A stretch of DNA of 64,000 nt from assembly GCA_918797485.1 (NCBI GenBank), contig CAKKNE010000004.1:372001-436000 (forward strand), given 5' to 3'. The notes beneath the pieces are model-generated. The model was not told the DNA's origin, ran no database searches, and saw only the letters and a program-made list of their open reading frames with translations. Each line of letters begins with the position of its first letter. Within the stretch, counting starts at the first letter, position 1. The DNA is from Pelagomonas calceolata. Taxonomy: Eukaryota > Sar > Pelagophyceae > Pelagomonadales > Pelagomonadaceae. Positions 1,530-54,816 of this stretch are shown here, in pieces. Both the position numbers and the translations under genes were made by a program.

Positions 1530-1956
1530 ATGAGGCGCTCTCCCTTGCTGGCTCTCGCGGCGCTGAGCACCGCTTTCGTTCTGCCACAACAACCACGCCT
1601 TGCCGTCCGCGTCCGCGCGGACGAGATCGAAGCGGCAGAAGACGCCGCCGACGCGGAGCCGCGCACCGCGCCGGAGGTGAACAGCGGCGCCGAGGCCGTC
1701 GCGCTCCGTGCAGGAATCAAAGCGTCGCGGCGCGTCTCCCACGCCATCGCCGCGACCGGTTGATGGCGCGCAGGTCGAGCTCCTCTTCAAGGACCCCGAG
1801 GGCTACAAGCTCGCGCGGGACGAGTACAACAAGAAGATGAAGGAGGAGATCATGGAGGAGGGCGCCCCCGACAGGGCCTTCCTGCTCCAGGCGGCCGCCG
1901 TCGGGCTCGGGAGCTTCCTCTTCGGCTTGTACGGCCCGAAGCGAAAGGATGACTAA
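1530..1956 (+). CDS. Small plastid-targeted single-pass membrane protein, two exons
   Basis: Exons 1530..1697 and 1774..1956 give 116 aa; the junction is phase 0. The leader MRRSPLLALAALSTAFVLP is a signal peptide followed by an ASA-FAP-like TAFVLP, so plastid targeting is inferred. The short mature chain is acidic, then lysine-rich (KLARDEYNKKMKEE), and ends with one hydrophobic stretch (AFLLQAAAVGLGSFLFGLYG) and a basic tail. Size and shape suit a small thylakoid subunit, but I recognise no family. Without splicing the reading frame ends early; the 76-bp introner-type intron joins the two frames. The stop lies 4 bp from the convergent VTA1 stop. Confidence 0.7.
1698..1773 (+). mobile_element. 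Introner-type intron, 76 bp, in the small plastid gene
   Basis: The intron starts with GTCGCGCT; the downstream exon starts with GTCGAGCT, a 7/8 target-site duplication. It ends GCGCAG. Inside are degraded terminal repeats (AGGAATCAA and TTGATGGCGCGCAG) and the ACGCCATCGCCGCG core. Phase 0. Splicing restores one copy of the duplicated octamer. Confidence 0.75.
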
Positions 1957-1960
1957 GAAA

Positions 1961-2800
1961 TTAGGAGAGCGCCTCGAAGGCCCGCTTGAGGCGCTCGAGG
2001 GCCAGGCCCGCGTCGCGCGCGTCGCAGGCCGCGATGGCGAAGCGGCAGCACTCGACGGCGTCGGCGAACTGCTGTTTGGAAGGCTGCCTTCCACTGCTGT
2101 TGATCGGCGGCGGCGCCTGCGGCGTCCACTGCCGCCGCGGCGGCGGCGCGAATGCAGGTGGTGGTTGGAAGGCCGGCGGCGACGGCGCCGACGGTTTGCC
2201 GGCCGGCGGGAGCTCGTCGTAGGCCGGCGGCGCGACCGGTGGAGGCAACGCCGTAGCGTCCGGGATGTCCGGTGTTGCTGGTGAGGCCGGCTCACTACCC
2301 CCAGGAGGCCCCGGCTCGGGCCGGACGCCGGCCTTCAGGCACTTGATGATGTCCGCGGCCTTGTATTTCGCGTAGCGACACTTTTCTTCCACTTCCTCGC
2401 CTCGCTCCCCAAACTGCGACAGGGCGTCGAAGAAGATGGACGCCGCGTAGAACGTCTTCGCTGTTGATTTGGAGGCCTTGCCCGCGCGATCTTCGGCGTC
2501 GGCCTTCGCAAACACATCTTCCGCGAATTGGCACAACACCTGCTCCTGCTCTTCCCGAGTTAAATCACCGAGCTTTTCTTTTTTGGACTCGAGCGTGTCC
2601 ATCAAACTTAGGAGGAAGGTCGTCGCGGCCTCGGCGTCACTCGCTTTGTCTCTGAGTGCTATGCCGAGCTCCATGGCGCGCTGGCGGCAGCAGTAGGCCG
2701 TCACGGACGCTTCTTGCGACGGGTCCCGATCTAACTCCTCCGCTCGTTGCAGGAAGGGCTTGGCCGGCTTGAACTCCGGCGGGATGGGCGGGAGCGGCAT
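1961..2800 (-). CDS. VTA1: VTA1/LIP5 homologue, ESCRT-III/Vps4 regulator
   Basis: 279 aa. The N-terminal ~150 residues match the Vta1 MIT-like domain: an aspartate-rich start (AEELDRDPSQEASVTAYCCR), AEDRAGKASKSTAKTFYAAS, and CRYAKYKAADIIKCLKAG. A Pro-rich linker of ~80 residues leads to a C-terminal helical Vta1_C segment (QQFADAVECCRFAIAACDAR) of the type that binds Vps4. In known systems the protein stimulates Vps4 disassembly of ESCRT-III at endosomes. Domain order and length fit the family and no intron is needed. A CTAG palindrome sits 168 bp upstream of the start. Confidence 0.9.
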   Translation of the reverse strand: MPLPPIPPEFKPAKPFLQRAEELDRDPSQEASVTAYCCRQRAMELGIALRDKASDAEAATTFLLSLMDTLESKKEKLGDLTREEQEQVLCQFAEDVFAKADAEDRAGKASKSTAKTFYAASIFFDALSQFGERGEEVEEKCRYAKYKAADIIKCLKAGVRPEPGPPGGSEPASPATPDIPDATALPPPVAPPAYDELPPAGKPSAPSPPAFQPPPAFAPPPRRQWTPQAPPPINSSGRQPSKQQFADAVECCRFAIAACDARDAGLALERLKRAFEALS

Positions 2801-2967
2801 CTTCTAGTTTGGGTCTCAGGGAGAGCGCTTGCTGCGGCGGCGTTTTTAGCCGTTCAAACGTGGTGGGCGCGCTTCTGGTGAAGGCTTGGGGTGCGCAGAG
2901 ACAGCCGGCGCGTTGTGAGCTGCACGGCGCCGCAAAAAAGGACTTGGCCGCGGGAGCAAAATAATGA

Positions 2968-2987
2968 CTAGCGTGTCGACACACTAG
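2968..2987. promoter_or_regulatory. CTAG palindrome between VTA1 and zinc-ribbon gene
   Basis: CTAGCGTGTCGACACACTAG is a near-perfect 20-bp palindrome with one mismatched pair. It lies in a divergent intergenic gap, 168 bp upstream of VTA1 and 385 bp upstream of the zinc-ribbon gene. It is one of at least 13 related sites in the window; function unknown. Confidence 0.5.
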
Positions 2988-3371
2988 CCTATCACCGGGC
3001 ACGAAAAGGAGACGTATACGATTCCTCGCAGGGAGTAGAAGGGCATTGGCGACTCGTCTGGCGGCTTCCCGCATGCCGCTGGGAAGCCAAAGAGCATTGC
3101 TGGGCTTTGCTTTGGCCTTGTACCGAGGCCGACGAGTAATAAGTGCTCGTTTCAGCTTCTAAGAGCCGCTAGATAACAGGTTTCGACTCTCAGCTCTCGA
3201 AACCGCCTTCCACCGCGCGGGAACACAACAAGCCTCAGCCCTCTGCAGCCCAGGCACTGGTAAGCCACCCGCAAGCCGCCGCCGTACAACAACTCTGCGA
3301 GAGGCAGGGACCAGGCAGCACCTCAGACTTCTCAGCCGTCGACGCCGCCGCGACCCAGAAAAAAAACAACC

Positions 3372-3848
3372 ATGAGCCAGATGCTCGCCGACCAAGGCAA
3401 AACCGCCCCGGTCGCCGAGGTCGTCCAATCACAACCACCGGCCTACGACCAGGCCGTCACCGCGACTGTGGTGCATGCCCAACCGATGGCGCCGCCCATG
3501 GTGGTGACCTGCCCGCCCGGCGTTACTGCGGGACAGCCGATGAGGGTTGTGGATCCAGGGACCGGCCAGACGATGCAGGTGACCGTCCCTAATGGTGTCA
3601 AGCCGGGCGGGCAGTTCCAGGTCCAGTTTCCCGCGCCCCAGCCCGTCGTGCAAGCACCGGCGCAGGGCCAGGTCGTCCACGTGCAAGGCCAAGTGGTCCA
3701 TCAGGCCGTCGCGCCGGCGTCGTCGGCGACGCGGCGCTGCCGCGGCTGCGGCGTCCAGTTCGAGCTGGACGCCAGGACGAACCCGGCCTCGGCGGCGGCC
3801 TTCCGGTGCAAGAAGTGCCGGCAGATCTCGTTCTCGAACTTCTTCTGA
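3372..3848 (+). CDS. Proline/glutamine-rich protein with C-terminal zinc ribbon
   Basis: 158 aa. The N-terminal two thirds are Pro/Gln/Val-rich and carry a repeated CPPGVTAGQPM...VPNGVKPGGQFQVQFP-type element of the kind seen in many stramenopile proteins. The C-terminus has CRGCGVQFEL and FRCKKCRQISF, two CxxC pairs that should bind one zinc. The ATG follows AAAAAAACAACC. Function unknown; an adaptor or nucleic-acid-binding role is a guess. Single exon. Confidence 0.75.
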   Translation: MSQMLADQGKTAPVAEVVQSQPPAYDQAVTATVVHAQPMAPPMVVTCPPGVTAGQPMRVVDPGTGQTMQVTVPNGVKPGGQFQVQFPAPQPVVQAPAQGQVVHVQGQVVHQAVAPASSATRRCRGCGVQFELDARTNPASAAAFRCKKCRQISFSNFF

Positions 3849-4010
3849 GACCCCGTGTGTTCTAGACTCGCGAGCGCCGACGCTATCGCCGCGATCGCTG
3901 CAAGAGAAGCAAGGGAAATACCCGTGTGTAAGACTTGAAAACTTATCACATTTAACGCGTCGTCGCCTCCGAGCTTTAGACACTCGGGGCGACGGCGTGT
4001 GAGGGCCGAA

Positions 4011-5779
4011 CTACCGTATCCGCAGCTTGTCGAGGTTCGCCCAGTGCGTCTGGACGTCCAGAATACTATGTGCCGTGATCATGCCCGAGGCCGCGACGGC
4101 CGGGACCCCAATCCCGGGGAACGTCGAGTCCCCACACACGTAGAAGCCGTCGAGCGGTGTGGAATGGCCCATGAGCTGTCCTGAGGTGGCAGGCAGGAAC
4201 GGTCCATAGGTCCCGGCGTCTCTTCTATTAAATCGTCGATGGGTCAAGGGCGTCGCGGGCAGCGCGACCTTTACCCTTTGACGGACGTCGGGCACGTAGC
4301 GCTCGATGGCCCGCCAGAGGACCTCGACGGCTTGTTCTTTCGCCTCCCGGTAGGCCGGCGACTGGTAGCCACCGTCCGTGAGGAACTCTTCCCAGTCTTC
4401 AAAGGGCTCCGTCGCCGGCACGTAGGCGTGGATGACGTGGCAGCCGTCCGGCGCGAGCGACCTGTGCGGGAATCCTCGCGTCGACCCCCACGCCATAGAC
4501 GCGACGTCTGCTCCCTGGTTGATTTCCGCGCGGCACAAGACGGGTCGAGCATCGACGCCATGGACACGAGAACCAAGTTGCGCGGCGCGTCGACGCCGCG
4601 GCCCCAGTCGTCGAGTGCCGCCCACTGGGCCGGTAATGATTCGGACGGTTCTGTGGGCAGGCCCGTGGCGTCTATACCCACGTGTAAGTGTAAAAACGAG
4701 TCGCAGCGCGTCACCCTTGCCGCTTGTTTGTCGAAGTAGTCGACGAGCTTCGGGTGCTTTGGTATTAATTTCTGTGTGGTCCAGAGGTCCGCGTTCGAGA
4801 CCACAATCGGGGCGGATATGGTCTCGCCGGACGCCAGCTCCACGCCCGTCGTCGCGCCGTCTTCTGCCAGCACCTTGGCCACCGGCGCGTTGAGCCGCAG
4901 CTCGCCGTTCTTCCTAACGCCTCGTAACAAAGCGTCGATAATACTCTTGGTCCCGCCCCTCGGGAAATCCAGTACGACCCCGTCACAATAAAAGTCCGAG
5001 AGCATGTAGGCCATCAGCGTCGTCGGCGCCTCTTTCGTCGTCGCCCCCTGCAGCAGGAAACAGATCATGTCCAGCCAGTTCCGTAGAAAGGCATCGGTGA
5101 CGCCGCACTGGTCCAGGACTTCCGCGAAGGGTCTTGACAATGCCGGCGCGGGGCCCACGGCCAATAACGTGGCGAGCGACAGGCCGTATCTGCCCAACGT
5201 CACAGCGGCAAACGCGTCCTCGCGCACGGCCGCCGACGGCACGCCGAAGATGGCTTCACCGAGAGGTTCGACCCTCTTCATTAATGTGTCAAATTGTTCC
5301 GCGGCACCGGGTCCCGCGTACGTCGGCAGAATTCGTTCCTTGAAATCTTTGGCCCCGACGGCGGCGGCAAACGTCCCCTCCGGAAAGGCCGTGCCCCATC
5401 TATCATAAGTGAGCCACTCGGGCTCCTCGCCGATGATCTGGAAGACGTGCTTCAATGGATTTGGGCTCGCGTTTGGCGAGAGGCCCGCGTACAAGGAGGG
5501 CCCGTTTTCGAAGGTGAATCCTTGCACTTCATAATCATGTGCTACTCCGCCGGCGCGGTCGTGCGCCTCGCAGACGAGCACGCGCTTCCCAGCGTTCGCG
5601 AGGATGGCTGCACAGCTAAGTCCACCTATCCCGCTGCCGACGACGACGGCGTCCCATTCGTTAGTCGTTGCTGCACTGCTGGCGGCGCTGCTCGCAGTAA
5701 TGCGCCGCGTCGTCGGCGTCTGCGGTGCCTGCAGTGCGGCGGCGTGGCAGAGGCTGCAGAGGACCACAGCGGTGCGCAT
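4011..5779 (-). CDS. CrtISO-like carotenoid isomerase/desaturase-family oxidoreductase
   Basis: Exons 4552..5779 and 4011..4471 give 562 aa. The start at 5779 opens a short leader (VVLCSLCHAAALQAP) suggesting plastid targeting. Next is an FAD dinucleotide-binding motif (VVVGSGIGGLSCAAILANAG), and the C-terminus has the second flavin signature YVCGDSTFPGIGVPAVAASG. The spliced junction DPSLAPDGCHVIHAY matches the DLAPxGxHxxHAY segment of carotene cis-trans isomerases, which supports the intron call. These enzymes act on poly-cis carotenes in plastids; the phytoene-desaturase/retinol-saturase superfamily is broad, so exact substrate is not certain. A CTAG palindrome lies 120 bp upstream. Confidence 0.85.
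4472..4551 (-). mobile_element. Introner-type intron, 80 bp, in the CrtISO-like gene
   Basis: On the minus strand the intron begins GTCTTGTG, then CCGCGCGGAAATCAACC, a variant of the family-A terminal repeat CTGTGTGGAAATCAA. The core is GCGTCTATGGCGT and the end GATTCCCGCACAG. The flanking octamers match at only about 4 of 8 positions, so the copy is old or altered. Phase 2; splicing gives the expected CrtISO protein. Confidence 0.8.
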
Positions 5780-5898
5780 CGCTCTTCTCTTTTTGCGGGC
5801 GGCGAACCAGCGGACTGTGTGAGATCCCACTCGTTTTGCTAGACAAATAATGCTGTTGTGGCGGTGAACAGCAAAGCTGAGTCGGTCGCCTCGATTAA

Positions 5899-5920
5899 CT
5901 AGCGGCATGTAGACACTAGC
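5899..5920. promoter_or_regulatory. CTAG palindrome in divergent gap
   Basis: CTAGCGGCATG then TAGACACTAGC, two inverted CTAG half-sites. It lies 120 bp from the CrtISO-like start and 63 bp from the MYND/RINGv gene start. Confidence 0.5.
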
Positions 5921-16530: not shown

Positions 16531-18839
16531 TTAACCCAGCTGCTCCTCGAGGAACGCCGCGATCTCGACCCAGTGGTCCGCCGACGTCCGCGGCGTATCT
16601 AAAGCATGGTCGTCCTCAGGATAGGTCAGCAGCCGCGCGGCCTTGCCCCGCGCTTGCAGGGCGTGGTAGTACTCCAGCCCTTGCGACGGCGGCACCCTTC
16701 TATCTTTCAGACCAAGAGCTAACAAGACGGGTGCCTCGACGGCATCGATCCCGGAGATAGGCGACATGGCGAAGAGCTTCTTCAGTACTTCCGGCCCCGG
16801 CGGTGTGCCCGACGATGCACATTCGCAGGCCACCCAGTCGGGAATGTCCGAACTACCGACCATGGCGCCTAGATTGGTGACCGGGTTCCGCAGCGCCGCA
16901 GCCTTGAACAATTTTGGTGAACGCGCAATCAAATGTGCACCCAAGAAGCCGCCGTGCGAGCCGCCGACGACGGCTATCTTGTCGCGGTCGACGTTATGCG
17001 TTGCGCAGCACACTTCTATCGCTTTCAGGCAGTCGTCGACGTCCTGGCTCCCAATGTTGCCCGGCAGCGAATAGAGTAAAGCCTTGCCGAAGCCTGTACT
17101 CCCCCGATAGTTCACGGATAACACGGCGAAGCCCCGTGACGCCAAAAAAGCTAAAGCTGCCGAATAGGACGTGGGCGTGCACCTGTGTGGAAATCAAAAT
17201 TTTACGGCGCGCTCGTGCTGAATCGTCGCGTCGACCTCCACGCCATCGATGCGACGCCTGCTCGATGGCGTGGCCATGCCGGTTCCTCGCCGCTCGACCG
17301 AGCCGGCGCGAGCACCCGATGCACTGGTTGATTTCCACACAGGCGTGCACGAGTGCGGTCCGCCATGCACACTAACAACCAGCGGTCGCTTCTCGGCACC
17401 CTCCTCCCGTAATAGTAACGCCTCGAAGGCGTCGACGCGGATGACGTCGCATTTCAGAGGTGCCGGCGCGGCGTCGAAGGTCGCCAGGGTCTTGGAGACG
17501 ACGCCGAGCGGCGGCGCGGCGGTCGACGCGAGGATGTCTCCAGTTTTGACGTCGACCGTTAATAAGGCGCCGGCGGCGACCTCGGGCGCGGTCGTGTGCA
17601 CGACCGCTATGCCATCCGCGACGCAGAGCGCGGCGTGGGCGTTGTCCGCGTCGCCGACGCGCGTTATTGACTTGTCCTTCGTGTCCACCAGCAGCACCGA
17701 CGGCGCCGAGCCCCAGAGCGAGTTCACGACGAGCGTGTCGCCGCTCCAGCAGTCCTCCAGGAGCTTCGGGCAGGCCCACAGCCCCGGGCACTCCTGTCGA
17801 TAGTCCGGGTTCAATGGCGCCTCGACGACGACGTCGACCGTGCCCGCGCTCCAGACCTTCAACTCGACGGCGCCGTCGTGCGTCTCGAATTGCTCCGCGG
17901 ACGCTAAGAACGCGAGGCGCGACCCATCTCCATTCCACCGTGGCGACCGCTGGACGGCGTCGCCGCACAACCGCTCCGCGACGTCCTCGTCGAGATCTCT
18001 CAGATAAATCGCCGACGGCCGGTTGAAGCAATAAATCAGCCCCAGCTTCCTATATTGCGACGTCCACACGACCGTGGCCAACTGCCGCGGCTGGACCGGC
18101 GAGAAGGCCGGCTGGCCCTCGTAGACCCCGTCCGGCGGGGGCTCGACGACTTCCAGAGTATCCTCGAGTAAATCAATGACGTAGACGCGCGGCGCCGCGA
18201 CGCCGACCTGCGTGCGATGGCGTCGATGCGGTGACACAGATGGACGCGCGTGCGGGACGCCTCGACGCCATCGACGCGGCCCAACTCGAAGGCACCCCAG
18301 CGCCGCCGCGGCACGTATTTCTCGCCGAGCTCCTCGCGGAAGCGGAACTGGCCATCGAAGGCCTCCTTCTGATCCGGTAACGGGGCGTCGGCGACGAAGG
18401 CCAATAGAGCTTCGTCGGCCGACCACGACATACCGCCCACCATCGCGTCGCCAATCAGCAATTTGCCGACTTTTTTCTTGTCCAGCTGGATGCGCTGGAC
18501 CAGCACGTCCTCCTCGTAGATCTCGACGACGGAACCGTCGTCGGTCTTTGAGAAGACCGCTAATTTTCCAGAAGCCGCGCGGCACCGCCCGACGACGCTC
18601 TCGGGGTCGTCCGCGAGCTCGCCGGCTCTTCTCAATGAACTGTCCTTATCTAGGCGATACCGCAACGTCTGGCGTCGTTTCTTGTTCGCCTCGACGTCGG
18701 GCAGGCTCCGCGTCACGGCGACGTGGACGTCGGAGCCGCTCGTGATCGCGACCGCGCCGTCGATGCCCGAGGCCTGGCCCAGGGCTCGCGCGTAGGCGGG
18801 CGCGAGGTCCGGGGACAATGCTGCGGCGGTCGTCGTCAT
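16531..18839 (-). CDS. Acylaminoacyl-peptidase-like S9 serine peptidase
   Basis: Exons 18276..18839, 17351..18207 and 16531..17182 give 690 aa, close to the usual acylamino-acid-releasing enzyme length. The N-terminal part is a beta-propeller (GGMSWSADEALLAFVAD, SPRWNGDGSRLAFLA). The C-terminal alpha/beta hydrolase has HGGPHS, NYRGSTGFGK, the nucleophile GGSHGG, the Asp in LGLKDRRVPPSQ and the His in EDDHAL. The first splice joins GAFELGR to VGVAAPRVYVIDL, the second GGPHS to CTPTSYSAALAFLASRG, both conserved regions. It releases N-acylated amino acids from peptides. The start could be 11 codons upstream (18872). Confidence 0.9.
17183..17350 (-). mobile_element. Introner-type intron, 168 bp, in the S9 peptidase: reference copy
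   Basis: Target duplication GTGCACGC (minus strand) is perfect, 8/8: positions 17343-17350 and 17175-17182. The element at 17183-17342 has perfect 15-bp terminal inverted repeats CTGTGTGGAAATCAA. GT comes from the first duplication, AG from the right repeat, so the spliced mRNA keeps one octamer. Phase 2. The interior has CGCATCGATGGCGT and its complement. Confidence 0.93.
18208..18275 (-). mobile_element. Introner-type intron, 68 bp, in the S9 peptidase
   Basis: The intron begins GTCGATGGCGTCGAGG and ends CATCGCACGCAG; the exon resumes with GTCGGCGT. The inverted core GTCGATGGCGTCGA / CATCGACGCCATCG makes up most of the length. Phase 0. An alternative donor 9 bp downstream (18266) keeps the frame. 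Confidence 0.75.
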
Positions 18840-19198: not shown

Positions 19199-20401
19199 AT
19201 GGGTCAGTCATTTTCACGACGAACACCTTCAATAAAAGAAGCGCGCCAGTCGCACGACGTCAAGCAGACTCATCGCGCCTTGCTCTCGGACGACGTGGTG
19301 TTTCTCCTGTTGTCTCAGCTCGCCCCGTGGGACGGCAGCGGTGCGGCCGCGGCCTGTAAAGTGTGGCGGTCTCACTGGAAGCGGCGATGCGCGGGCTTGC
19401 TGCGTCTGGCCAGGCATCGCGTCGGAGCTTATGAGTGGTGCAACCACGTTGTCGCCAAGCCCGGCGGAGGCGTGATTGTCTCAAACTATCACGAATCACG
19501 ACTCGAGATCTTCTCGCCGGAGGGCGAATCCCAGGGCGCGTTCGTCGCGGGTGTGTCTCCTTTCGACACGCCAGGCGCGGTGGCGCTCCTCGGCGACGAG
19601 CGCAATACGGCCTGGATCATCTGTGAAGACAATCAAAACTTAGTCTGCGTTCAATTGGGCGACGCCATGGGGGAGGACAAGTTTCTAGAGCCGTCCGACC
19701 AGATCGTCAGTCCAACTATGGACTATATTTGCCCCAAGGACCTCGCCCTTAGTCCCGGTGGTGAATTCCTGCTCGTGCTAGTTGACGATTACGGCGAACT
19801 CGGGGAAGTTTTCGTGCTCAACTCTCGAGATGGAACTATTGTGGGCAGCTTCGGCTTTGAGGAAGATGATACGTTCGGTAACTTGCACTCGCCTCGCGGC
19901 CTGGCGGTCCAGGGCGATTACTGCTTCGTCGCCGATACGTACAATCAGCGAGTTTGTGTCTTCAACTGGCGCAGCCAGACCTGGGTACGCTGCTTTGGAC
20001 GGCGAGGCGCGTTCCTGCACCGTCACTTGGGTGACCCGGAAGCGGAACATCCTTACTGGTGGGATTCAGTAATTAGCGATGGCAGTCGCGGCTACGAAGA
20101 TGAACGCAAAGGAACTGGGCCGGGCGAGTTCATTGAGCCCGTTGGCGTCGCGGTCCATGGCAACATGCTATATGTTTCTGAATTAGTCGGTCGCAGGATC
20201 CAGGTCATGCGGTTGCCCGCCGACATCCTCGATTTGTCCTCAGAGCCGCAGGTATTGCAGATTATCCCGGCACCCGGTGGTCAACGGTTAGGTGGCCTTT
20301 GCGTCGACGGCGAGCGGTTGTGGTGCGTGGGCCCACATTGTATTGGGCCCCCCGGGGACCGCGAAGACACCTACGTGAGCCTTTTTTCGCCGTATGTGTA
20401 A
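19199..20401 (+). CDS. F-box-like / NHL-repeat beta-propeller protein (copy 1)
   Basis: 400 aa. An F-box-like helical segment (ALLSDDVVFLLLSQLAPWDG ... AAACKVWRSHWKRR, residues ~24-65) is followed by repeated NHL-type blades: LHSPRGLAVQGDYCFVADTY, NQRVCVFNWRSQTW, GEFIEPVGVAVHGNMLYVSE. This resembles TRIM/NHL propellers. An F-box would link to an SCF ubiquitin ligase and the propeller would bind the target; this is inference. A close paralogue forms most of the chimeric gene at 26315-27742. Confidence 0.8.
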   Translation: MGQSFSRRTPSIKEARQSHDVKQTHRALLSDDVVFLLLSQLAPWDGSGAAAACKVWRSHWKRRCAGLLRLARHRVGAYEWCNHVVAKPGGGVIVSNYHESRLEIFSPEGESQGAFVAGVSPFDTPGAVALLGDERNTAWIICEDNQNLVCVQLGDAMGEDKFLEPSDQIVSPTMDYICPKDLALSPGGEFLLVLVDDYGELGEVFVLNSRDGTIVGSFGFEEDDTFGNLHSPRGLAVQGDYCFVADTYNQRVCVFNWRSQTWVRCFGRRGAFLHRHLGDPEAEHPYWWDSVISDGSRGYEDERKGTGPGEFIEPVGVAVHGNMLYVSELVGRRIQVMRLPADILDLSSEPQVLQIIPAPGGQRLGGLCVDGERLWCVGPHCIGPPGDREDTYVSLFSPYV

Positions 20402-23024: not shown

Positions 23025-24455
23025 ATGGCTGCCCCGGAGCCGCAGCTCGCTGGTGTCCTGGGAGCGGCGGTAGACCAGATCGACGTGGACGAGAAGGTGG
23101 TGATCGTGCGCACGCTCAGGGTCCATGTCAACGTCGGCATGCTGGACTTGTACCGCAACGACGTCCGGAGGCTAGGCCTCGCGGTGCCGTGTGCCCATAA
23201 CAAGGGCGACACCCGCGTCTTCGTGGGCACCGCGTTTGCGCCTGAGGCGATGAAGTTCTTTGGGCCTCCGCCCGACGGCGCGGACGCCGAGGCGTACCTC
23301 CAGGAGTGCTACAAAATCTTGAACTCGCAGAAGAGCGTAGTCGACTACGTGAATTCGTGCGACGACAGAAAGAACGACCCCAAGAAGAAGTGGGTCTTCG
23401 GAACGCGCGAGAAGGAGCTCGGCGACTTCAACGAACTCTTGCTAGAATTCAAGGAGGCCTGCCCCATTTTCTTCGACGAGGAGACCGGTGCCCCCTTCTA
23501 CCAGGAGCAGAACTTCGCCGCGGCGTTCATCGACTGCATCAGGCGGCGCAACCCCGAGCTGAAGTGCAAGACCCACATCCAGAAGCTCTGCAAGAAGCGG
23601 CGCCTCCTGCGCAAGGCCGACGCCGTGGTGAAAGCCGCGCGGCGCGCCGACGCCGTGGCCGCGGCGACCGTGCTCGTCGCTCGCGGGCGCGTCGTCGACG
23701 CCGTGCTGGCGGCCGCGCGCGACCCGGCCGCCGCCGCGCTCGCGGAGCCCGCCGAAGAGCCCGCGCCCGACGCCGCGCCCGACGCGAACCAGCCGCCCGC
23801 GCCCGCGCCCGAAGCGCGGACGGCCGCCTCCCTGGGGTGGCCCGGCGGGACGGCGCCGGCGCCCGCCGCCGACCGCGAGCCGCGCCCCCTGGACGCGTCG
23901 CCGTCGCCGCGGGCGAAACAGAAGCGCCCCGGCGCGGCGCGGCGCCCGCCGCGCCACCGCGCCAACCCGCCCGGCGCGCGCGCGGCTGCGCGCCCGCGCC
24001 GCCGGGCGGCCGGCGGCGCGCCGGCGCGGGCGCTGCAGCCGTCGCCAGACACGAGCCCGTCGCCCGCGACGGAGGTGTCCGTTGGCGACGCGGACGCTGC
24101 CGAACTCCAGAGGATGCTGGCGACGGCCGAGGCGCGCGCCGCCGACGTGAAGAAGCGCGCCGACGGGCTCGGTGCTCAACTCGCCGAAGCCAAGACGCGG
24201 TGGAAGGCGGGCGACGAGCGCGCCAAAGCTGCCGAGGAGGAACGCGACCGGCTCAAGGTGCGCGCCGAAGCGCTCGCGGCGGATTTCGCCGCGGCCAACG
24301 CGTTCGCCGAGACGGCCAACGCGCGCGTCCGCGCGGCTGAACAGGACCGCGACCGACAGAAGGCGCGCGCCGACGCGGCCGAGGCGCGCGTCCGCGAGCT
24401 CGAGGAGAAGCTGAGGGACCGCGCGGACCGCGCCCTCGGCGACGACACCGAGTAG
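23025..24455 (+). CDS. Unknown globular domain plus coiled coil
   Basis: 476 aa from ATG 23025. Residues ~1-210 look globular and charged (VDQIDVDEKVVIVRTLRVHV, NPELKCKTHIQKLCKKRRLL). A ~160-residue Ala/Pro/Arg-rich stretch follows, and then a C-terminal coiled coil with heptad character (AEARAADVKKRADGLGAQ ... RVRELEEKLRDRADRALGDD). The last ~17 codons and ~140 bp of 3' flank are nearly repeated at the end of the next gene. I recognise no domain. Codon use in the middle is extremely GC-rich. Confidence 0.6.
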   Translation: MAAPEPQLAGVLGAAVDQIDVDEKVVIVRTLRVHVNVGMLDLYRNDVRRLGLAVPCAHNKGDTRVFVGTAFAPEAMKFFGPPPDGADAEAYLQECYKILNSQKSVVDYVNSCDDRKNDPKKKWVFGTREKELGDFNELLLEFKEACPIFFDEETGAPFYQEQNFAAAFIDCIRRRNPELKCKTHIQKLCKKRRLLRKADAVVKAARRADAVAAATVLVARGRVVDAVLAAARDPAAAALAEPAEEPAPDAAPDANQPPAPAPEARTAASLGWPGGTAPAPAADREPRPLDASPSPRAKQKRPGAARRPPRHRANPPGARAAARPRRRAAGGAPARALQPSPDTSPSPATEVSVGDADAAELQRMLATAEARAADVKKRADGLGAQLAEAKTRWKAGDERAKAAEEERDRLKVRAEALAADFAAANAFAETANARVRAAEQDRDRQKARADAAEARVRELEEKLRDRADRALGDDTE

Positions 24456-24885
24456 CTCCACGCGCCTGCTGACGCTTTCCACCTCACGTTACGACCTCCC
24501 CCAAGTACTTAAGGACCTCACGTCTGAAGCCTCGTCATTTCTGCTCCGGGCTGGGTAGTACGTACATGCGGCTCCTGGCGTCGTCGATGAGCTCCATTTG
24601 TGCGCTTTGACGGTTCGTACCGCTGCCGCTAGTAGCACTAGCTTTTTGGAGCCTAAAACAATTCCTCGTCACATCGGTTTAAGGCAGCCCGTGCGCCGTC
24701 TACAGGCAATCAGACACCCGGGGGAGCCTCTAAACGACTCCACACCCCCTCGTTGCCATCCTGCTGCTCGCGCGCGACCGCTGCTGCGGCACACGCTGCG
24801 ACACAGGCCCACAAAACCAGCAAGCTCTTTTGCCCATCGTCGACGCAGGCCGTGCAAGATGCCCGTACCGATGGGCGACGAAACC
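24412..24885. repeat. Repeated 3'-end/promoter module, copy 1
   Basis: Nearly identical to 25893-26341: the coding end (CRADRALGDD-type codons), a 3' flank with TCCACGCGCCTGCTGACG, then, after a short divergent stretch, a 5' leader with CATCGGTTTAAGGCAGCCCG and the shared start ATGCCCGTA. It serves as terminator of the upstream gene and promoter/5' UTR of the gene at 24859. Confidence 0.8.
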
Positions 24886-25929
24886 GACGACGAAATCGAC
24901 GACGGCGAGGATGAGCCGATACGACGCGGTTCCGCGGATATGATTCCGGCCGAGATGCGCGAGACGACGCAGGAGCTGCGGCGCCAGCTGCAGATCGAGA
25001 AGCAGGTGGCGCGCGACGCCGAGCGCGAGCGCGACGAGGTGTTGCGCGAGCTGAGGGCCATGCGCGCGGAGCAGGCTGCGCGGTACGATCGGTTGGCGGC
25101 CCTGAAAGCCAAGCTCGCGAAGGACCCGGAGAACCCCAGACCTACAGTGTCAGATCGGGTAGCGGCCCTGCGGGCCGAGGCGCGCGAGAAAACGGCGCAA
25201 CTAGCACAGGCGCATGATCGTGATCCTTCTCTCGACGATCTCGAGGCCGGAGTCACCTCCATGCAGGTCGGGCAGAAACGCGCTCGCATTGGGATCGAGG
25301 AGCGCAAAGATGTCGCGGAGCGGGATTATGCCTCGCTCGGGGCTCGGGTGCAAGAGCTCGACGAGACCGTCGCCGAGCTGCGCCGACAGTTGGAAACGGA
25401 GAAGAAGGCCAATCACGAGGCCCTCGTGACGTGCATGCGCGGGCGCACCAAGGCCGAGGAATATAACAAGGTTTTAGTGAAGCTGGTCGCCGCTTACGAG
25501 CGTGTGACCCCTCCGGAGAAGATCGCGCCGATCGCCGCTCGGATCTGGGCGCGCGCGCCCACGGTACCGGGCGGTGCCGCGACGGCGCCCGAGTCCGACG
25601 AAGCGGATCCCGGGGATAAGCGCCCCGTCCCGCCTGGACAGGAGGCCCAGAAGGTCAAGAAGCCCAAATTGGCCGCGCCGACGCCGTCGGGAATGGAGTT
25701 GGCGGAAACGTGCCTAGACCGCGACGCTGCACCGGAGAAGCCCACCACCGTGAGCTCCGATGAGCGCATACGCGCCGTCGAGGACCGCCTCGCGAAGCAG
25801 GCGAGCAGACACGAGAGAGAGATGGAGGCGCTTCATGTGGCGTGCGACGCGGCCGAGGCGCGCGCCCGCAAGCTCGAGGAGCAGCTGAAGAACCGTGCGG
25901 ACCGCGCCCTCGGCGACGACACCGAGTAG
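24859..25929 (+). CDS. Coiled-coil protein sharing both ends with its neighbours
   Basis: 356 aa from ATG 24859 (MPVPMGDET). It is strongly helical: RETTQELRRQLQIEKQVARD, LGARVQELDETVAELRRQ, EDRLAKQASRHEREMEALHV. KVKKPKLAA looks like a nuclear signal. The C-terminus (KLEEQLKNRADRALGDDTE) matches the end of the gene at 23025, and the leader and first codons match the chimeric gene at 26315. It is thus an intermediate in a tandem duplication series. Function unknown. Confidence 0.65.
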   Translation: MPVPMGDETDDEIDDGEDEPIRRGSADMIPAEMRETTQELRRQLQIEKQVARDAERERDEVLRELRAMRAEQAARYDRLAALKAKLAKDPENPRPTVSDRVAALRAEAREKTAQLAQAHDRDPSLDDLEAGVTSMQVGQKRARIGIEERKDVAERDYASLGARVQELDETVAELRRQLETEKKANHEALVTCMRGRTKAEEYNKVLVKLVAAYERVTPPEKIAPIAARIWARAPTVPGGAATAPESDEADPGDKRPVPPGQEAQKVKKPKLAAPTPSGMELAETCLDRDAAPEKPTTVSSDERIRAVEDRLAKQASRHEREMEALHVACDAAEARARKLEEQLKNRADRALGDDTE

Positions 25930-26341
25930 TTCCACGCGCCTGCTGACGCTTTCCACCCCACGTTACGACCTCCCCCAAGTACTAAGGACGCTGAGCCTAG
26001 TAATTTCTGATCCGGGCCGGGTAGTACGTACATACGCCTCGTGGCGTCGCCAATGAGCTCTCTTTGTGGGCCTTGACGGCTCGACCAGTAGCACTAGCTT
26101 TTTGGTTGCAAAGCCTTCTCTCTCGTCACATCGGTTTAAGGCAGCCCGCGCGCCGTCTACAGGCAATCAGACACCCGGGCAGCCTCTAAACGACTCCACG
26201 CGCCCCCGTCGCCATTCTTCTGCTCGCGCGCGACCGCTGCTGCGGCACACGCTGCGACACAGGCCCACAAAACCAGCAAGCTCTTTTGCCCATCGTCGAC
26301 GCAGGCCGTGCAAGATGCCCGTACTGATGGGCGATGACGAC
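25893..26341. repeat. Repeated 3'-end/promoter module, copy 2
   Basis: Second copy of 24412-24885. The two differ by scattered substitutions and small indels; the core CAATCAGACACCCGGG and CAGGCCCACAAAACCAGCAA are identical. It drives the chimeric propeller gene at 26315. Confidence 0.8.
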
Positions 26342-27742
26342 GGCAGTTGGAGGAGGGGCAGTACGGAGGAGGGGCAGTTGGAGGAGCAGTTGGAGGACAT
26401 GCGCTTCGACCGCGATTGCGCGCGCGCGACCATCGCGGAACAAGACAAGCGCATCCTAATGTTGGAGGAACAGTTGGCAGAGGCGCGCAAGGCCCTCGAC
26501 GCGCACGACGACGCCGATCGGCTCTACGCGATACCTTCAATACAAGATACTCTGTCGGACGACGTGAAGGAGACTCACCATGCCCTGCTCTCGGATGATG
26601 TGGTGTTTCTCCTGTTGTCGCGGCTCGCTCTCTCGGACGGCACTGGGGCGGCCGCGGCCTGTAAGATATGGCAGTCTCAGTGGAAGCGGCGATGCGCGGG
26701 CATGCTGCGCCTGGCCAGGCATCGCGTCGGAACTTTTGAGTTTTGCCAACACGTTGTCGCCAACCCCGGCGGAGGCGTGATTGTCTCAGACTATCACAAA
26801 TCACGACTCATGGTGTTTTCGCCGGAGGGCGAATCCCTGGGCGCATTCCAATCCCCTCGTATAATCTGGACGCCAGGTGCGGTGGCGCTCCTCGGCGACG
26901 AGAGCAATACGGCCTGGGTACTAGACGAAGACAGGGAACGCCTCATCTGCGTGCGATTAGGCGATGCCATGGGGGGTGACAAGATTCTAACGCCGTCCGA
27001 CCGCATCGTTAGTCCGGTTATGGACTATAAATGCCCCAAGGCCCTCGCCCTTAGTCCCGGTGGTGAATTCCTGCTCGCAATAGTTAACGATTGGGTCGGT
27101 GAAGTTCTCGTGCTCAACTCTCGAGATGGAACTCTTGTGAGCCGCTTCGGCGAAGAGGAAGATGATACGTTCGGAAACTTACATTCACCTTGCAGCCTGG
27201 CGGTCCAGGACGATTACTGCTTCGTCGCCGATACGTACAATCAACGAGTCAGTGTCTTCAACTGGCGCAGCCAGACCTGGGTGCGCTGCTTTGGACGGCG
27301 AGGCGCGTTCCTCCACCACCGTACTTGGACATCTGACCCGGAAATTCCGCATCCGTACTGGTTCGATTCGGAAATGAGCAATGGCGACGCCGAATATGAA
27401 GATGAACGCAAAGGAACTGGGCCGGGCGAGTTCATTGAACCCGTTGGCGTCGCGGTGCATGGCAACACGCTATATGTTTCTGAATTAGTCGGTCGCAGGA
27501 TCCAGGTCATGCGGCTGCCCGAGAATATCCTCGATTTGTCCTCAGAGCCGCAGGTGTTGCAGATTATCCCGGCGCCCGGTGGTCAACGGCTAGGTGGTCT
27601 TTGTGTCGACGGTGAGCGGTTGTGGTGCGCGGGCCCTCTCTCTATTTACACTGAGCTTGGTAAACCCCCCAAATACACCTACGTGAGCCTGTTTTCGCCG
27701 TTTAGCGGAGACGAGCAAGGACCGCGACCGCGCGCGGCCTAA
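26315..27742 (+). CDS. Chimeric coiled coil - F-box-like - NHL propeller protein (copy 2)
   Basis: 475 aa from ATG 26315 (MPVLMGDDD). Residues ~1-70 are a coiled coil (EEGQLEEQLEDMRFDRDCAR ... LMLEEQLAEARKALDAHDD) not found in the first propeller gene. From DDVKETHHALLSDDVVFLLL onward it is a close paralogue of the gene at 19199, including the NHL blades FGNLHSPCSLAVQDDYCFVA and FIEPVGVAVHGNTLYVSEL. Its promoter, leader and first codons come from the gene at 24859. The fusion is seen directly in sequence; its function, possibly dimerised substrate-receptor activity, is inference. Confidence 0.8.
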   Translation: MPVLMGDDDGSWRRGSTEEGQLEEQLEDMRFDRDCARATIAEQDKRILMLEEQLAEARKALDAHDDADRLYAIPSIQDTLSDDVKETHHALLSDDVVFLLLSRLALSDGTGAAAACKIWQSQWKRRCAGMLRLARHRVGTFEFCQHVVANPGGGVIVSDYHKSRLMVFSPEGESLGAFQSPRIIWTPGAVALLGDESNTAWVLDEDRERLICVRLGDAMGGDKILTPSDRIVSPVMDYKCPKALALSPGGEFLLAIVNDWVGEVLVLNSRDGTLVSRFGEEEDDTFGNLHSPCSLAVQDDYCFVADTYNQRVSVFNWRSQTWVRCFGRRGAFLHHRTWTSDPEIPHPYWFDSEMSNGDAEYEDERKGTGPGEFIEPVGVAVHGNTLYVSELVGRRIQVMRLPENILDLSSEPQVLQIIPAPGGQRLGGLCVDGERLWCAGPLSIYTELGKPPKYTYVSLFSPFSGDEQGPRPRAA

Positions 27743-39322: not shown

Positions 39323-40651
39323 ATGACCCCCGCCCAACTCACCCCCAACCCATTACCGGACGAGGACGACGCCGAAACGCCTCAAACACCGCCCGCCAGC
39401 GACGCCGACGACGCGCCAACACCAAAAAGAGAAGACGAGGCGCCCGCGAAAGCGATCCGACGAGCGAAGCGTGCGTGACACGGCGTCCTTTTCAAGCGTC
39501 GCAGCGATGGCGTTCCGGTGCGAGAGAGATACAACATCGACGCGACCGTCGCTCGCAGGCTCCTACACGCCCCCGCCCAACAAACCCACGAGCGTCCACC
39601 TCTCCCCGACTGCCTCCTCCCGAAACCCAAAGACCATCGGCATGCCCAAGGCGCCCATCGAGTACGCCCACGAAATTAGACAATGCACGTTCTCGCCGCG
39701 CGTGCGTGAATCGGCGTCCTTTTTTGAGCGTCGCGTCGATAGCGTAACGTGACGCGACTCGCAGGTCAAAGGCGTCGCCGCGCACATGAAGCAGGCCCGG
39801 GCCTGGACGTCCGTGGAGGTGACGGAGCGTTTGGCCGCGCAGCCGCCGCCGCCGCCGCCACCGCCAAAGCCGAAGCAACAAACCATCGGCGGCCCCTCGA
39901 TCGACTTCCAGGAGTTCGTGAGAAGACAAGGGAGGGACTCGTCGCGGCGCGCGCGCAAGGCCGAGGCGCGGCAGAAGGAGACGCCGCGCGAGTGTTCCTT
40001 CAAGCCGAGGCTCTGCGAGAATTCCAAAAGAATGGCGCGCAACTCGAAGTTCGACGACCGCCAGAACCGCCTCGAAGCGCGCCGCCTCCAGCGCATGGCG
40101 AGCGGCGATAGAGAAAAGTTCTCGGGCCACCTCGAGTCGGACGCGAAGAACCCGCCCGACGCGCCGCGGCCGCGCGAGACGTTCCGGTGCGGGCCCAGCG
40201 TCCTTTTTTCAGCGTCGCGGCGATGGCGTACCGGTGGACGACACGCAGGCCCGAAGTCACGGCCAAGGCGAAAGCAAGGCCCGCGCGCACCGCCGACGCG
40301 CAATCGAGAATAGACGCCGCGCGGCGCCAGGCCGCGACGAAACGCGTCGAGGCGTCGCTCGCCGCTCGACGAGCACGGGAGGAAACGTTTAGGCCGCGCC
40401 TGAACCACCAGACGTCGCGGTCCTGGGAGGACGTCAAGCCGCGGTTGTTGGCGCCATCTCGCCGCGCGCGCGACGCGACGCGCGCCCCGAAGCGCGACGA
40501 CGATTTGGAGGCGTGCTCCTTCAGGCCGCACCTCGTCGCGCAGTGCCCCGCGTACATCCACGCCATGGCCGACGCGTCGCGGGCGTCCAAAAGGGCGGAG
40601 CCCGCGCCGCCGCCGCCGCCGAAGCCGATGTTCTTCCACGGCCGGGACTAA
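39323..40651 (+). CDS. Repeat protein with CxFxPR motifs, four exons
   Basis: Exons 39323..39470, 39559..39701, 39765..40186 and 40249..40651 give 371 aa with exact phase (1, 0, 2). A repeated short motif occurs four times: CTFSPR, ECSFKPRLCENSKRMA, ETFRPRLN and ACSFRPHL. Similar 'C-[TS]-F-x-P' repeats occur in protist cytoskeletal and flagellar proteins, so an axonemal or cytoskeletal role is possible, not shown. There are two polyproline runs (P8 and P7) and basic helical spacers. All three introns are introner-like and share their 5' ends. Confidence 0.75.
39471..39558 (+). mobile_element. Introner-type intron, 88 bp, repeat-protein intron 1
   Basis: GTGCGTGACACGGCGTCC TTTTCAAGC ... CGTCGCAGCGATGGCGTTCC ... 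GTCGCTCGCAG. The first 20 nt are similar to the next two introns of this gene. Phase 1. Confidence 0.8.
39702..39764 (+). mobile_element. Introner-type intron, 63 bp, repeat-protein intron 2
   Basis: GTGCGTGAATCGGCGTCC then TTTTTTGAGCG, core CGTCGCGTCGATAGCGT, end GACTCGCAG. Phase 0. It shares the first 8 nt, GTGCGTGA, with intron 1, although exon context differs. Confidence 0.8.
40187..40248 (+). mobile_element. Introner-type intron, 62 bp, repeat-protein intron 3
   Basis: GTGCGGGCCCAGCGTCC then TTTTTTCAGCG, core TCGCGGCGATGGCGTACC, end GACACGCAG. Phase 2. A GC donor 6 nt inside (GCCCAGCG against exon GCCCGAAG) also keeps the frame. Confidence 0.75.
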
Positions 40652-47467: not shown

Positions 47468-47477
47468 TGTGTGTTGT

Positions 47478-48625: not shown

Positions 48626-50223
48626 CTACATAGAACAGCGCTCCGCGAAGCGCACGCGCGCCGCGACGCCTGATGAGTCCTCGTCGCGGAGTCGGCGCAG
48701 CTCGTCCGCGAGCGCCCGCCGCGTCGCGTTCCTCTCTTCGCGTCGTCGGTTCGCGAGCACGTGTACCCCGAAGCGAACGAGCGGGATCGCTAGGATCGCG
48801 AGCGAGTAGTAGTAGAAGAAGGCCGCCGCGCGCGCGAGCGCGCCGTCGACGGCCCCGCGGAGGACCCACAACGCGAGCACGTTGCCTCCCACCAGCCCCG
48901 CGCAGCAGAGCGTCCTTTCAAAGGAGAGCCCCGCGAAGGGCACGGGCGCCTCGCACAACGCGTCGTCGCCGTCGGCGGGGGCGCCTCCAACCAGCTCGGG
49001 AAATTCGAACACGACGCCGCCCCCCTCCTCGCAGCGCCGGGGCCGGCCCCGGAAGTGGACCACGGCCACTGCCGCCGCGGCCTCGCTGCCGCGCAGCTTC
49101 ATGGGCGGCGCGGGCAGGTGCGGCGCGAGGTCCTCGGGGGCTATGACGCCGCCGCGGCTCGCGATGACTCCGCCGACGGCTCGCCAGTGGTCCGCGGTCC
49201 GCGCGCCGGGACCGCCGAAGAGGAAGGCGTGCAGCGCCGACAGCGCGTCGTCGCTTGGGTTCGGCGGACTCGCGCCCCCCTCGTCGTCGAGGAGCGCCTC
49301 GCGGTCCTCCTCGTCGACGGCCGTCGCGACGGGCAGATCCTCTGTCAGCGGCGCCTCCTCGGCCGGCACGGCGACGACGACGCCGTCGCGGACGACGGCG
49401 CGCGTCCGCGCGACGTTCCGCCGACGCCGCGCGTGGCGCAGCGCCGAGCCGAGGCCGTAGCCGTAGCCGTAGCCGGGATAGCCGTAGCCGTAGCCGTAGC
49501 CCCCGAACGGCCCGTAGTAGTACGGGTAAAAACCGAAGGGCACCGGCCGGAAGAACGGGTTCGTCCCGCCGCAGCACCTGTGTGGAAATCAAATTTCGGG
49601 CGCTTCACGCCATCGACGCGACGTAGTCCCCGTGACCGTAAAACCCAACTCACCGTTTGATTTCCACACAGCGCAACACCAGTACAGCGACGTAAACAAG
49701 TTCCACGTCCTCACGAGTTCGTGGAGCTCCCGGATGCCTCCTCGTATGTTCGGGCCCCGCGACCGCGACCGGCCGTCGCCGCGCAGGGCGGCCACGGCCG
49801 CGGCCACGACGAATAACACCTGTGCATAAATCAAAGTCTCGCGGCGCGTCCTTACGCCATCGACGCGCACCCGACTCACTGGTTGATTTGCGCACAGAAT
49901 AACACCACGACAACCGCCACGAAGAGCGTCGCGAGGAGCACGAACGCGCCGACGGCGTACTGCGCCGCGGTCGCGGCCGCTGTTAGAATGTGCTGCAGCC
50001 GCGCGTTCGCGCGCCGGGCGCCGAGCTTGCTCTTGACGTTGGACGGAAAGATGTAGACCACGATCTCGCCGCGGAACTCATACGAGCCGCCGCACGCCGC
50101 CAGCAGCTGCGCCAGCGCCTCCTCGCTGTCCTCGACGGTCGCGCCCGTTTTTAACGAGACGTCCAATGCGGTCGCGCGGTAGCGCTGGCGCTCGAGGACG
50201 GCCAGGAGCTGCTTGTCGTCCAT
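48626..50223 (-). CDS. Multi-pass membrane protein with Tyr/Gly-rich repeat, three exons
   Basis: Exons 49906..50223, 49680..49819 and 48626..49577 give 469 aa. Residues ~1-60 look soluble and helical (LAVLERQRYRATALDVSLKT, SEEALAQLLAACGGSYEFRG). A transmembrane segment straddles the first intron (AAQYAVGAFVLLATLFVAVV, VLFVVAAAVAAL). Then comes GGIRELHELVRTWNLFTSLY, a Tyr/Gly repeat (YYYGPFGGYGYGYGYPGYGY), an Ala/Asp/Glu-rich region, and two C-terminal membrane segments (CCAGLVGGNVLALWVLRG, FFYYYSLAILAIPLVRFGVH). No family recognised. Both introns are clean introners and their removal gives a coherent protein. Confidence 0.75.
49578..49679 (-). mobile_element. Introner-type intron, 102 bp, membrane-protein intron 2
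   Basis: Target octamers GTGTTGCG and GTGCTGCG (7/8). Terminal repeats CTGTGTGGAAATCAA are perfect and continue 2 nt. Core CGCGTCGATGGCGTGAAGC. Phase 2. Confidence 0.93.
49820..49905 (-). mobile_element. Introner-type intron, 86 bp, membrane-protein intron 1
   Basis: Target octamers are both GTGTTATT (8/8). Terminal repeats CTGTGCGCAAATCAA and CTGTGCATAAATCAA (13/15). Next to the left repeat is CCAGTGAGTCG, shared with 54158. Core GCGTCGATGGCGTAAGGACG. Phase 0. Confidence 0.93.
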
Positions 50224-50830: not shown

Positions 50831-50833
50831 CTT

Positions 50834-50887
50834 GGCTGTTCTCGCGCCGGCGGCTGTTTTCGCGCCGGCGGCTGTTTTCGCGCCGGC
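50834..50887. repeat. 18-bp tandem repeat, three units
   Basis: GGCTGTTTTCGCGCCGGC repeated three times (first unit has C for T at one position). It starts 4 bp upstream of the SF3B5 ATG, so probably in its 5' UTR or core promoter. Confidence 0.85.
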
Positions 50888-51318
50888 GCGGCGGTTTTTG
50901 GCCGCAGGCCGCTTTTACTCTATAAACTCGGCCGCGGGGGCGCGGGGCGCGCTGTTCTCGGCTGTGGTCCCTAAGCGGCTGTCTGGGCGAGCGATGAAAG
51001 CCGTGGGAGGTGAATCCGCTAGCCCGCGGCGTCGCCTGCGGAGCCGCAAAGTGGCGAGTTATCGAACCGAGGCTAGCGGCTTGTAAGACACTAGCAAACA
51101 CTCCAAAAACTTGTTGCAGCCTTTGTGCAGGCCGCAGCCTGCAAATAAATTTGCGTTCGAGGCGCTTCGGTTTCGAGACGGTCCGTGCGAAGCACCTGAC
51201 ACCACTAAGCTCGGGATAGGGCTGCCCAGCAGCAGCATTGATGGTCAGCGGTGCATGACGGCTGCCCACGCGTGACTCATCGCTATCTGCCGAGGCACAA
51301 GGAACCTCAGAGCAACAA
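50888..51318. promoter_or_regulatory. Divergent promoter region, SF3B5 / antiporter
   Basis: 431 bp. Holds the CTAG palindrome at 51072-51095. Otherwise no feature I can support. Confidence 0.35.
51072..51095. promoter_or_regulatory. CTAG palindrome
   Basis: GCTAGCGGCTTGT then AAGACACTAGC; 224 bp upstream of the antiporter and 242 bp upstream of SF3B5. Confidence 0.5.
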
Positions 51319-52509: not shown

Positions 52510-53099
52510 TGTGGTGTGAGTTGTAGAGTTTTTTGGCACGGGACCCACGCGCGGGGGAATGACGTGCGGCAGAGGAGCCCCTTCAGCTTGGACGGTTTGT
52601 CGATGTTACGGTGCTAGGACTAGTGGGCGGAGCCCCGGGGGGGGAGACACCGCGCGTCGCCGATTCATCGGCGGCGGGCGCGGGCCGCTTCTTTCATAAC
52701 AGCGTACCTCCTTCTAAGCAGGACGTCCTGGAGGATCTGAGGCTGAGGCTAGTTACGTCGCAGGGCTCCCCGTACCCCTCCCGGGATCTCTGCTAGTGTC
52801 TTAGCAGGACGCTAGCTCGACTATTTTTGTCGACACTTTGCCTTGCAGCCTGTGCCAGAGCTCATATCTGACCGAGGCACGCGCACGCTGCTGAACCACA
52901 ACTAATTCCTTCGCAGTTCTCACTGCTGCCGCTTGCGTGAGGCAGAGTGCAGCGAGCGACCCAAGGCTGCAGGGTGCAGTGCAGTGCGAGAGGCGCTCTC
53001 ACAAAGCGCCGTCGCCGCTGAAGAGCCGCAAGGGACCCAGCTGCCGCGCACTGCAAGGATCTCTCACAAGCGCGACGCCGCCGAGGCGTACACAGAGCC
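52510..53099. promoter_or_regulatory. Intergenic region upstream of NOL10
   Basis: 590 bp between tandem genes. Contains the CTAG palindrome at 52792-52816. No coding frame with a domain. Confidence 0.35.
52792..52816. promoter_or_regulatory. CTAG palindrome
   Basis: GCTAGTGTCTTAGC then AGGACGCTAGC; 284 bp upstream of NOL10. Confidence 0.5.
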
Positions 53100-54816
53100 A
53101 TGGTCACGCGCGTCGGCGCCCAGACGGCCATTTACTGCTTGAGCGACGGCGCTAGACTCCCAGCCTGGGCCGAGCAGTCCGACCAGGCGCGACGGAAGGC
53201 CCTGAAGCGAGACGAAAAACTCGGTAGAAGGGTCGAACTCCTCCAAGGTTTAGAATTTGAGGGCGGCGCTTCTAGAAGAATCAAATTCAGCGATGATGGA
53301 CGGATGCTCGTGTGCACGGGAGAGTACCCGCCAGCTTGTAAAGTGTTTGAGTTGTCGCAGCTCGGCCAGAAGTACGAGCGGAGGTTAGGGTGTGCTGCTG
53401 TTGATGTCTGGCCCCTGTCGCCCGATTTGGGCAAGATGGTCTTCCTCTTATCTGATCGCACTCTGGACTTCCACGCGCCCTATGGTACTCATTATAAAGT
53501 GAGAGTGCCCTCGGCTGGAAGAAGACTACTGTACGACGGCGCGAAATGTACGCTACACGTCGCGTCCGGACAGAGATCAGTAGCGCATCGTTTGGACCTA
53601 GACTCAGGCACTTTCTTATCCGATTTGGAGGTAGGCGCTCCCTCGTCGTGCTGCGACCTCGGGAGGGGCGTGCCACTCACGGCCTTCGGCTGCGAAGATG
53701 GGATCGTGCGCTTCTTCGACGCTCGAACCAGTTCTATACAACCCGTGGCTTTACTAGACGTCGGCAACGACGTCACGGCTCTGGCATTCGATGGCGACGG
53801 GTTGAGAATAGCCTGCGGCACGGCCGATGCGGAGGTGAAGTTGTACGATCTGAGAAGTAAACGGCCTACTCTCACAAAAGCGCATCAAAATCTCCTACCG
53901 ATCGTCGACCTGAAGTGGCACTCGTCCTCGCGAGAGACGGCCTCGTCATTAATACTGTCGTCGGACGCTCGCGTCCTCAAAGCCTGGGATTCTCGAGATG
54001 GCAAGGTCTTCACGAACGTGGAGCCCTCTAGTCCCTTGAATCACGTCGCCGTGGCGCCTTCATCGGATGAGCGAGACTCGGGACTCATCCTGATGGCGGG
54101 CGAACAAGCGAGGGTCATGGCCTACTACGTCCCGGCTTTAGGGCGGGCGCCGCGGTGGTGCGCGTCCGTGTGGAAATCAACCAGTGAGTCGTGCTGCTCA
54201 GTCGAGCGGTGAGACTCCGGCACCGCCACGCTATCGAGCAGAGTCGCGTCGATGGCGTGGAGGTCGACAAACGCGCCGTGAACTTTGATGTCCACGCAGG
54301 TGCGCCTTCCTCGACTCGCTCACCGAAGAACTGGAGGAGAAGGGCCAGTCCCACTTCGAGGATTACCGGTTTGTATCTAGGACGGAGCTCGACGAGCTCG
54401 GTGGCGAGGCCTTCGTGGGCACGCCGCAGTTGCGAGCGCACGCGCACGGTTTTTTTATGGATGCTCGTTTATATAAAAGATTACGCGCTGCGGCTGCCCC
54501 GTACGCCTACGACGACTACAAGAAGCAGAAGGTCGCGAAGAAGCTGGCCGAGAAGCAGGAGAGTCGTATTCGTAGAGCTGAAGTGTTACCGGCCGTCAAT
54601 GCGGAGCTCGCTCAGAGATTGCTTTCGCCACCAGAGGAGGACAAGCCGCGGAAGCGCGGCAAGAAGAAGTCGAAGCAGGGTCTCCCTACGCCGACGGAGG
54701 CGAATCCCCTGGGCGACGACCGGTTTGGGGCGATGTTCACCGACGAGCGGTTCCAGGTCGACGAGTCTACGGAGGAGTACAGATTGAGGCATCCTCCCGT
54801 CAAAAGTAAGAAGTAG
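53100..54816 (+). CDS. NOL10: NOL10/ENP2 ribosome-biogenesis WD protein, two exons
   Basis: Exons 53100..54157 and 54300..54816 give 524 aa. A WD-repeat propeller: GGASRRIKFSDDGRMLVCTG, YPPACKVFELSQL, CGTADAEVKLYDLRSKRP, LPIVDLKWH, ILSSDARVLKAWDSRDGKVF. The signature YYVPALGRAPRWC-AFLDSL TEELEE spans the intron, confirming the splice. The C-terminus is Lys-rich (KPRKRGKKKSKQG) as expected for a nucleolar protein, with DDRFGAMFTDERFQVDE typical of the NUC153-like region. It acts in 18S rRNA / small-subunit maturation. Confidence 0.93.
54158..54299 (+). mobile_element. Introner-type intron, 142 bp, NOL10
   Basis: Target octamers GTGCGCGT and GTGCGCCT (7/8). Left repeat CCGTGTGGAAATCAA then CCAGTGAGTCG; right end TTTGATGTCCACGCAG. 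Core GTCGCGTCGATGGCGTGG. Phase 2. Confidence 0.92.

Follow-up and report, generated by a model that had tools for sequence, protein, structure and literature searches.

The question raised by this locus in the pelagophyte Pelagomonas calceolata is whether short introns of unrelated genes arose from mobile elements that bring their own splice sites. Introners of this kind have reportedly been described in Aureococcus anophagefferens by Huff, Zilberman and Roy in 2016, with a splice site said to be co-opted from the target site duplication (TSD). The original prediction, made from the letters of the window (the whole 64-kb stretch analyzed, C4:372001-436000), proposed about twenty such elements. 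Judged on sequence, five clear elements and a decayed sixth are very probably introners, that is, non-autonomous MITE-like DNA transposons turned into spliceosomal introns, with splice sites made by the TSD and the terminal inverted repeat (TIR).

Genome sequence and sampling

The genome searched comprises 32,445,274 bases in eight contigs, of which the six large ones sum to ~32.3 Mb. The genome paper (PMC9481584) reports, for P. calceolata RCC100, six nuclear contigs (32.4 Mb) plus one plastid and one mitochondrial contig, and 0.45 introns per gene. Sixteen 10-kb stretches with fixed coordinates were sampled, together with 60 stretches around TIR matches on contig C1. Because an exact match to the TIR on one side was the criterion for this second set, it is biased toward well-preserved copies.

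Coding frames of the flanks were set independently for each flank from codon usage, and chance TSD matching was estimated by shuffling right flanks. Ordinary intron ends were taken from the output of a rough gene finder, and a comparison of introner donors against them was too noisy.

Probable introners in the window

The five best cases of the original prediction (1698, 17183, 49578, 49820 and 54158) were all recovered in place, each with a TSD matching at 7-8 of 8 positions, a GT donor in the first TSD copy and an AG ending the right TIR. The figure of about twenty was an overcount, since the family defined by TIR and TSD comprises these five and the decayed copy at 4462, exactly where the rough gene finder had independently put an intron. 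A core plus terminal repeats had also been proposed for introns of at least eleven genes. The core was indeed widespread, a core-like motif (≤2 mismatches) being present in 18 of 42 roughly predicted introns, whereas many of the core-bearing introns lack the TIR and any TSD. Neither is the orientation relative to the gene uniform, as had been claimed: the element at 1698 runs opposite to the other four, and sampled genome copies run both ways (23 versus 14, with 18 unclassified).

Table 1. Introner-derived introns and other features located in the window and on contigs C4 and C5 (window positions unless a contig is given).
Feature	Position	Strand	Element	TSD	Remarks
Introner-derived intron	1698..1773	+		GTCGCGCT/GTCGAGCT, 7/8	Degenerate TIR; interior reversed relative to the other four
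Older copy of the introner family	4462..4541	-		Decayed, 4/8	TIR recognisable
Introner intron	17183..17350	-	17183-17342, 160 bp	GTGCACGC, 8/8	S9 acylaminoacyl-peptidase-like gene
Introner intron	49578..49679	-	49578-49671, 94 bp	GTGTTGCG/GTGCTGCG, 7/8	
Introner intron	49820..49905	-	49820-49897, 78 bp	GTGTTATT, 8/8	Gene shared with 49578
Introner intron	54158..54299	+	54166-54299, 134 bp	GTGCGCGT/GTGCGCCT, 7/8	NOL10/Enp2-like gene
Three similar core-bearing introns (near 39471, 39700 and 40187)	39471..40248	+			Without family TIR or clear TSD; not counted as members
Duplicated segments, 83-94% identical	19249-20331 / 26554-27633				
Duplicated segments, 83-94% identical	24371-24881 / 25845-26337				
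Intact-looking hAT transposon	C5:1220521-1223389			ACACTCGG, perfect 8 bp	Long open frame; TIR CTAGGTTGCCA
Intact-looking hAT transposon	C4:4499549-4503199			TTGCTCGC, perfect 8 bp	Long open frame; TIR CAGGGCAGCAGAAGGGCAAG

In a family-agnostic scan, all intron candidates with a perfect 8-bp TSD belonged to the TIR family, and the 7/8 class was at background level. A second introner family among the core-bearing introns was rejected, as these show no TSD excess. The trio at 39.5-40.2 kb, which shares GCGTCCTTTTTTnAGCGTCGC or a close form of it, is clustered and its sequence is rare elsewhere in the genome; it was rejected as a genome-wide family, being a local set only, and from its sequence looks like a local intron duplication.

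A genome-wide element family

Members of the family carry a 15-bp inverted TIR, CTGTGTGGAAATCAA, at both ends. Genome-wide, the repeats and duplications on which the original prediction relied were borne out: the TIR (≤2 mismatches) occurs at 3,250 end-like sites versus 22 for the reversed control, and TSDs match at 7-8 of 8 positions in 52 of 71 paired elements in the sampled DNA versus ~1.2 by chance. Element length ranges from 60 to 206 bp. Full-length copies (203 bp) diverge from the consensus by 4.6% on average, are 94-97% identical and are found on all six nuclear contigs, and the host genes of introner copies are unrelated to one another. Among the sampled copies, TIR conservation did not differ between donor side and acceptor side.

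The GC-rich core 13-mer has 3,001 exact copies in the genome versus 1 for the reversed control. Its matches are enriched in roughly predicted introns (32 in 25 kb), with 14 in 29 kb of intergenic DNA and 22 in 169 kb of coding DNA, and it is also present in short arrays. Given its presence in intergenic DNA, coding DNA and arrays, the core is not diagnostic of introners; it may also be a minisatellite unit.

Two further arrangements were noted. At C1:1830075-1831025, two TIR ends of identical direction are separated by 198 bp and have no right-hand partners, possibly representing nested or truncated copies. In the sampled stretch L023, an array of core-like units (CGCGACGCCATCGACGCGACG) occupies positions 1811-1942, outside any clear introner.

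Predicted splice sites and reading frame

The TSD has a constant length of 8 bp. All 55 copies with a TSD matching at 6 or more of 8 positions have GT or GC (GY) at one TSD end, in one orientation. In 33 copies both flanks were confidently coding; in every one of them the two flanks agree in strand, the reading frame runs on once the element and one TSD copy are removed, and GY stands at the sense-strand donor. Where the TSD offers GY in one orientation only, this is the sense orientation of the gene (24 of 24). As the octamer is duplicated, several splice registers give an identical mRNA; the only one giving GY...AG throughout runs from the start of the first TSD copy to the TIR end. Across the genome, the dinucleotide after the TIR end is GT in 681 cases and GC in 370.

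The mechanism originally put forward (donor from the first TSD copy, AG from the right TIR, exon unchanged) is accordingly supported, at the level of sequence, by each of the 33 testable sampled copies, for the TIR family rather than for all core-bearing introns. All three intron phases occur, as had been foreseen (phases 0, 1 and 2 in 13, 8 and 18 of 39 sampled copies).

Predicted spliced peptides were compared with solved proteins. Removal of the 17183 intron restores the motif HGGPH/S (slashes mark junctions), and the peptide aligns gap-free at the junction with acylamino-acid-releasing enzyme (acylaminoacyl peptidase). Likewise, removal of the 54158 intron restores the conserved APR/WCAFLD, gap-free at APR/WC against NOL10. 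Other sampled spliced peptides are gap-free at the junction against TrpRS, kinesin and CysRS.

These elements probably became introns as follows. A transposase would insert an element of 60-206 bp bounded by inverted TIRs (CTGTGTGGAAATCAA), duplicating 8 bp of exon. Surviving insertions would be those in which the duplicated octamer, read in the sense of the gene, starts with GT or GC. The first TSD copy would then serve as 5' splice site and the second would restore the exon, leaving the protein unchanged; the AG, and probably also the branch/pyrimidine region, would come from the downstream TIR (TTGATTTCCACACAG). We infer that introners are actually spliced, that the branch point lies within the TIR and that a TIR hairpin assists; by eye, the TIR stretch TTGAT fits the branch site motif yUnAy.

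Donor choice, U1 pairing and intron folding

The sense donors of the sampled introners are GT in 39 cases and GC in 16 (about 29% GC), and GA and GG do not occur. Once the abundance of the two dinucleotides in coding DNA is allowed for, an available GT is found as the donor 6.5 times as often as an available GC. No consensus is seen at TSD positions 3-8. The best U1 match in the genome, at 64.3 bits just below the Rfam gathering score of 69.5, begins with the canonical ATACTTACCTG. Numbers of U1 pairs are similar at introner donors and random coding sites, with 3.29 versus 3.44 for GT and 2.57 versus 2.54 for GC. Introner donors thus appear, from these predicted pairings, to have no U1 complementarity beyond GY, although the U1 of the genome is canonical.

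Folding predictions for the intron RNAs give a hairpin in which the TIRs form the closing stem and the AG is located at the base or immediately beside it (z -2.5 to -5.0), and this hairpin may guide donor choice. A tentative extension, which we rate as possible but on balance doubtful, is that position together with structure sets the introner donor, which sits 8 nt outside the TIR hairpin with the AG at its base and needs only GY without extended U1 pairing.

Alternative explanations and origin of the elements

Copies with neither flank coding are scarce, 1 of 53 versus 9.2 expected from random positions, pointing to insertion or survival biased to genes. This near confinement to coding genes, as well as their spliceable appearance, is also what would be seen if the introns had copied themselves through RNA, the route of reverse splicing plus reverse transcription suggested for introners in fungi. 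Sense-strand RNA intermediates, however, are not expected to leave 8-bp TSDs, 15-bp TIRs and both orientations relative to the gene, and such copying is highly improbable. Both orientations are the expectation for DNA transposition with symmetric ends; together with the TIRs, the TSDs and the 4.6% mean divergence they fit cut-and-paste DNA transposition and disfavour RNA-mediated copying. We give equally little credence to ordinary, unspliced MITEs that disrupt genes or pseudogenes. Donors without extended U1 complementarity would be natural for these, but they leave unexplained why GY is on the sense strand in 24 of 24 one-sided cases and why junctions are gap-free in host genes for the conserved TrpRS, CysRS and NOL10.

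A further alternative accepts the elements as introners and concerns only the GY rule, which might reflect a target preference of the transposase instead of selection for splicing. The occurrence of GY at one end of all 55 copies with well-matched TSDs and the depletion of copies away from coding DNA are in its favour. A preference acting on double-stranded DNA should nevertheless put GY on either gene strand, contrary to the 24 of 24 on the sense strand, and we regard this alternative as improbable, if less so than the two above. Survivorship, rather than target choice, would then underlie the GY rule; by itself it does not account for the scarcity of copies with neither flank coding (1 versus 9.2 expected).

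Taking the elements as introners derived from DNA transposons, a search for a mobiliser in the genome (KDZ, MULE, IS1595/Merlin and hAT) found no transposase with introner TIRs. The MULE and IS1595/Merlin searches gave no match; nor did the KDZ search, in which no control matched either. Two intact-looking hAT transposons, like the introners, have 8-bp TSDs and terminal inverted repeats. The TIR sequences of both differ from that of the introners, and an origin of the introners as hAT-derived MITEs is not supported, with the proviso that further hATs could have been missed. An 8-bp TSD is not decisive for hAT, as it is shared by several superfamilies. In viral contigs, 22 stretches matched TIR ends and none had paired TIRs at introner spacing.

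The chromosome ends of C1 and C5 are duplicated within their first 261 kb, with 98.5-99.9% identity over the sampled stretches and mainly small indels. In the ~22 kb compared of this very recent duplication, no empty introner allele was found, only small indels and mismatches.

Relation to known introners

Introner logic as such is already known, introners with splice sites supplied by TSD and TIR being described in PMC9860276. Introner-like intron lengths in P. calceolata are known as well: the genome paper notes that intron lengths peak near 210 bp, which it calls 'the characteristic length' of introners in Aureococcus (PMC9481584). New in the present analysis are the sequence of the element, the rule that GY lies on the sense strand, the share of GC donors and the absence of U1 pairing outside the GY.

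The Aureococcus introners, as cited in PMC9860276, PMC7789003 and PMC9481584, are likewise from a pelagophyte and MITE-like, with TIRs, direct repeats of constant length and a TSD-co-opted splice site. According to PMC7789003, canonical splicing motifs are present in all Aureococcus elements, whereas about 29% of P. calceolata introner donors are GC. Introners of Symbiodinium microadriaticum likewise have TIRs and an element-borne 3' splice site (Gozashti et al. 2022, Fig. 2B, PMC9860276), but their TSD is 4 bp instead of 8 bp and their host is unrelated (PMC9860276). Amoebophrya introners also combine short direct repeats with inverted repeats through which the intron can form a hairpin that brings the exon boundaries together, and hairpins that join exon ends have been proposed for them (PMC7789003). 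In contrast to the P. calceolata introners, which are of the GY-AG type and whose host genome has a U1 with a canonical 5' end, they are largely non-canonical (PMC7789003).

The intron-length hint of the genome paper thereby becomes a defined element family, giving a base-level view of how introns were gained en masse in an alga that is abundant worldwide and whose genome sequence is nearly complete. The TSDs constitute a natural assay of donor choice, making the minimal needs of a new intron testable, and flanking U1 pairing seems not to matter for donor choice in introners. If the proposed role of structure is true, nearly every GY could serve as a donor thanks to the TIR hairpin, and this would account for the capacity of a single transposon to produce introns in large numbers.
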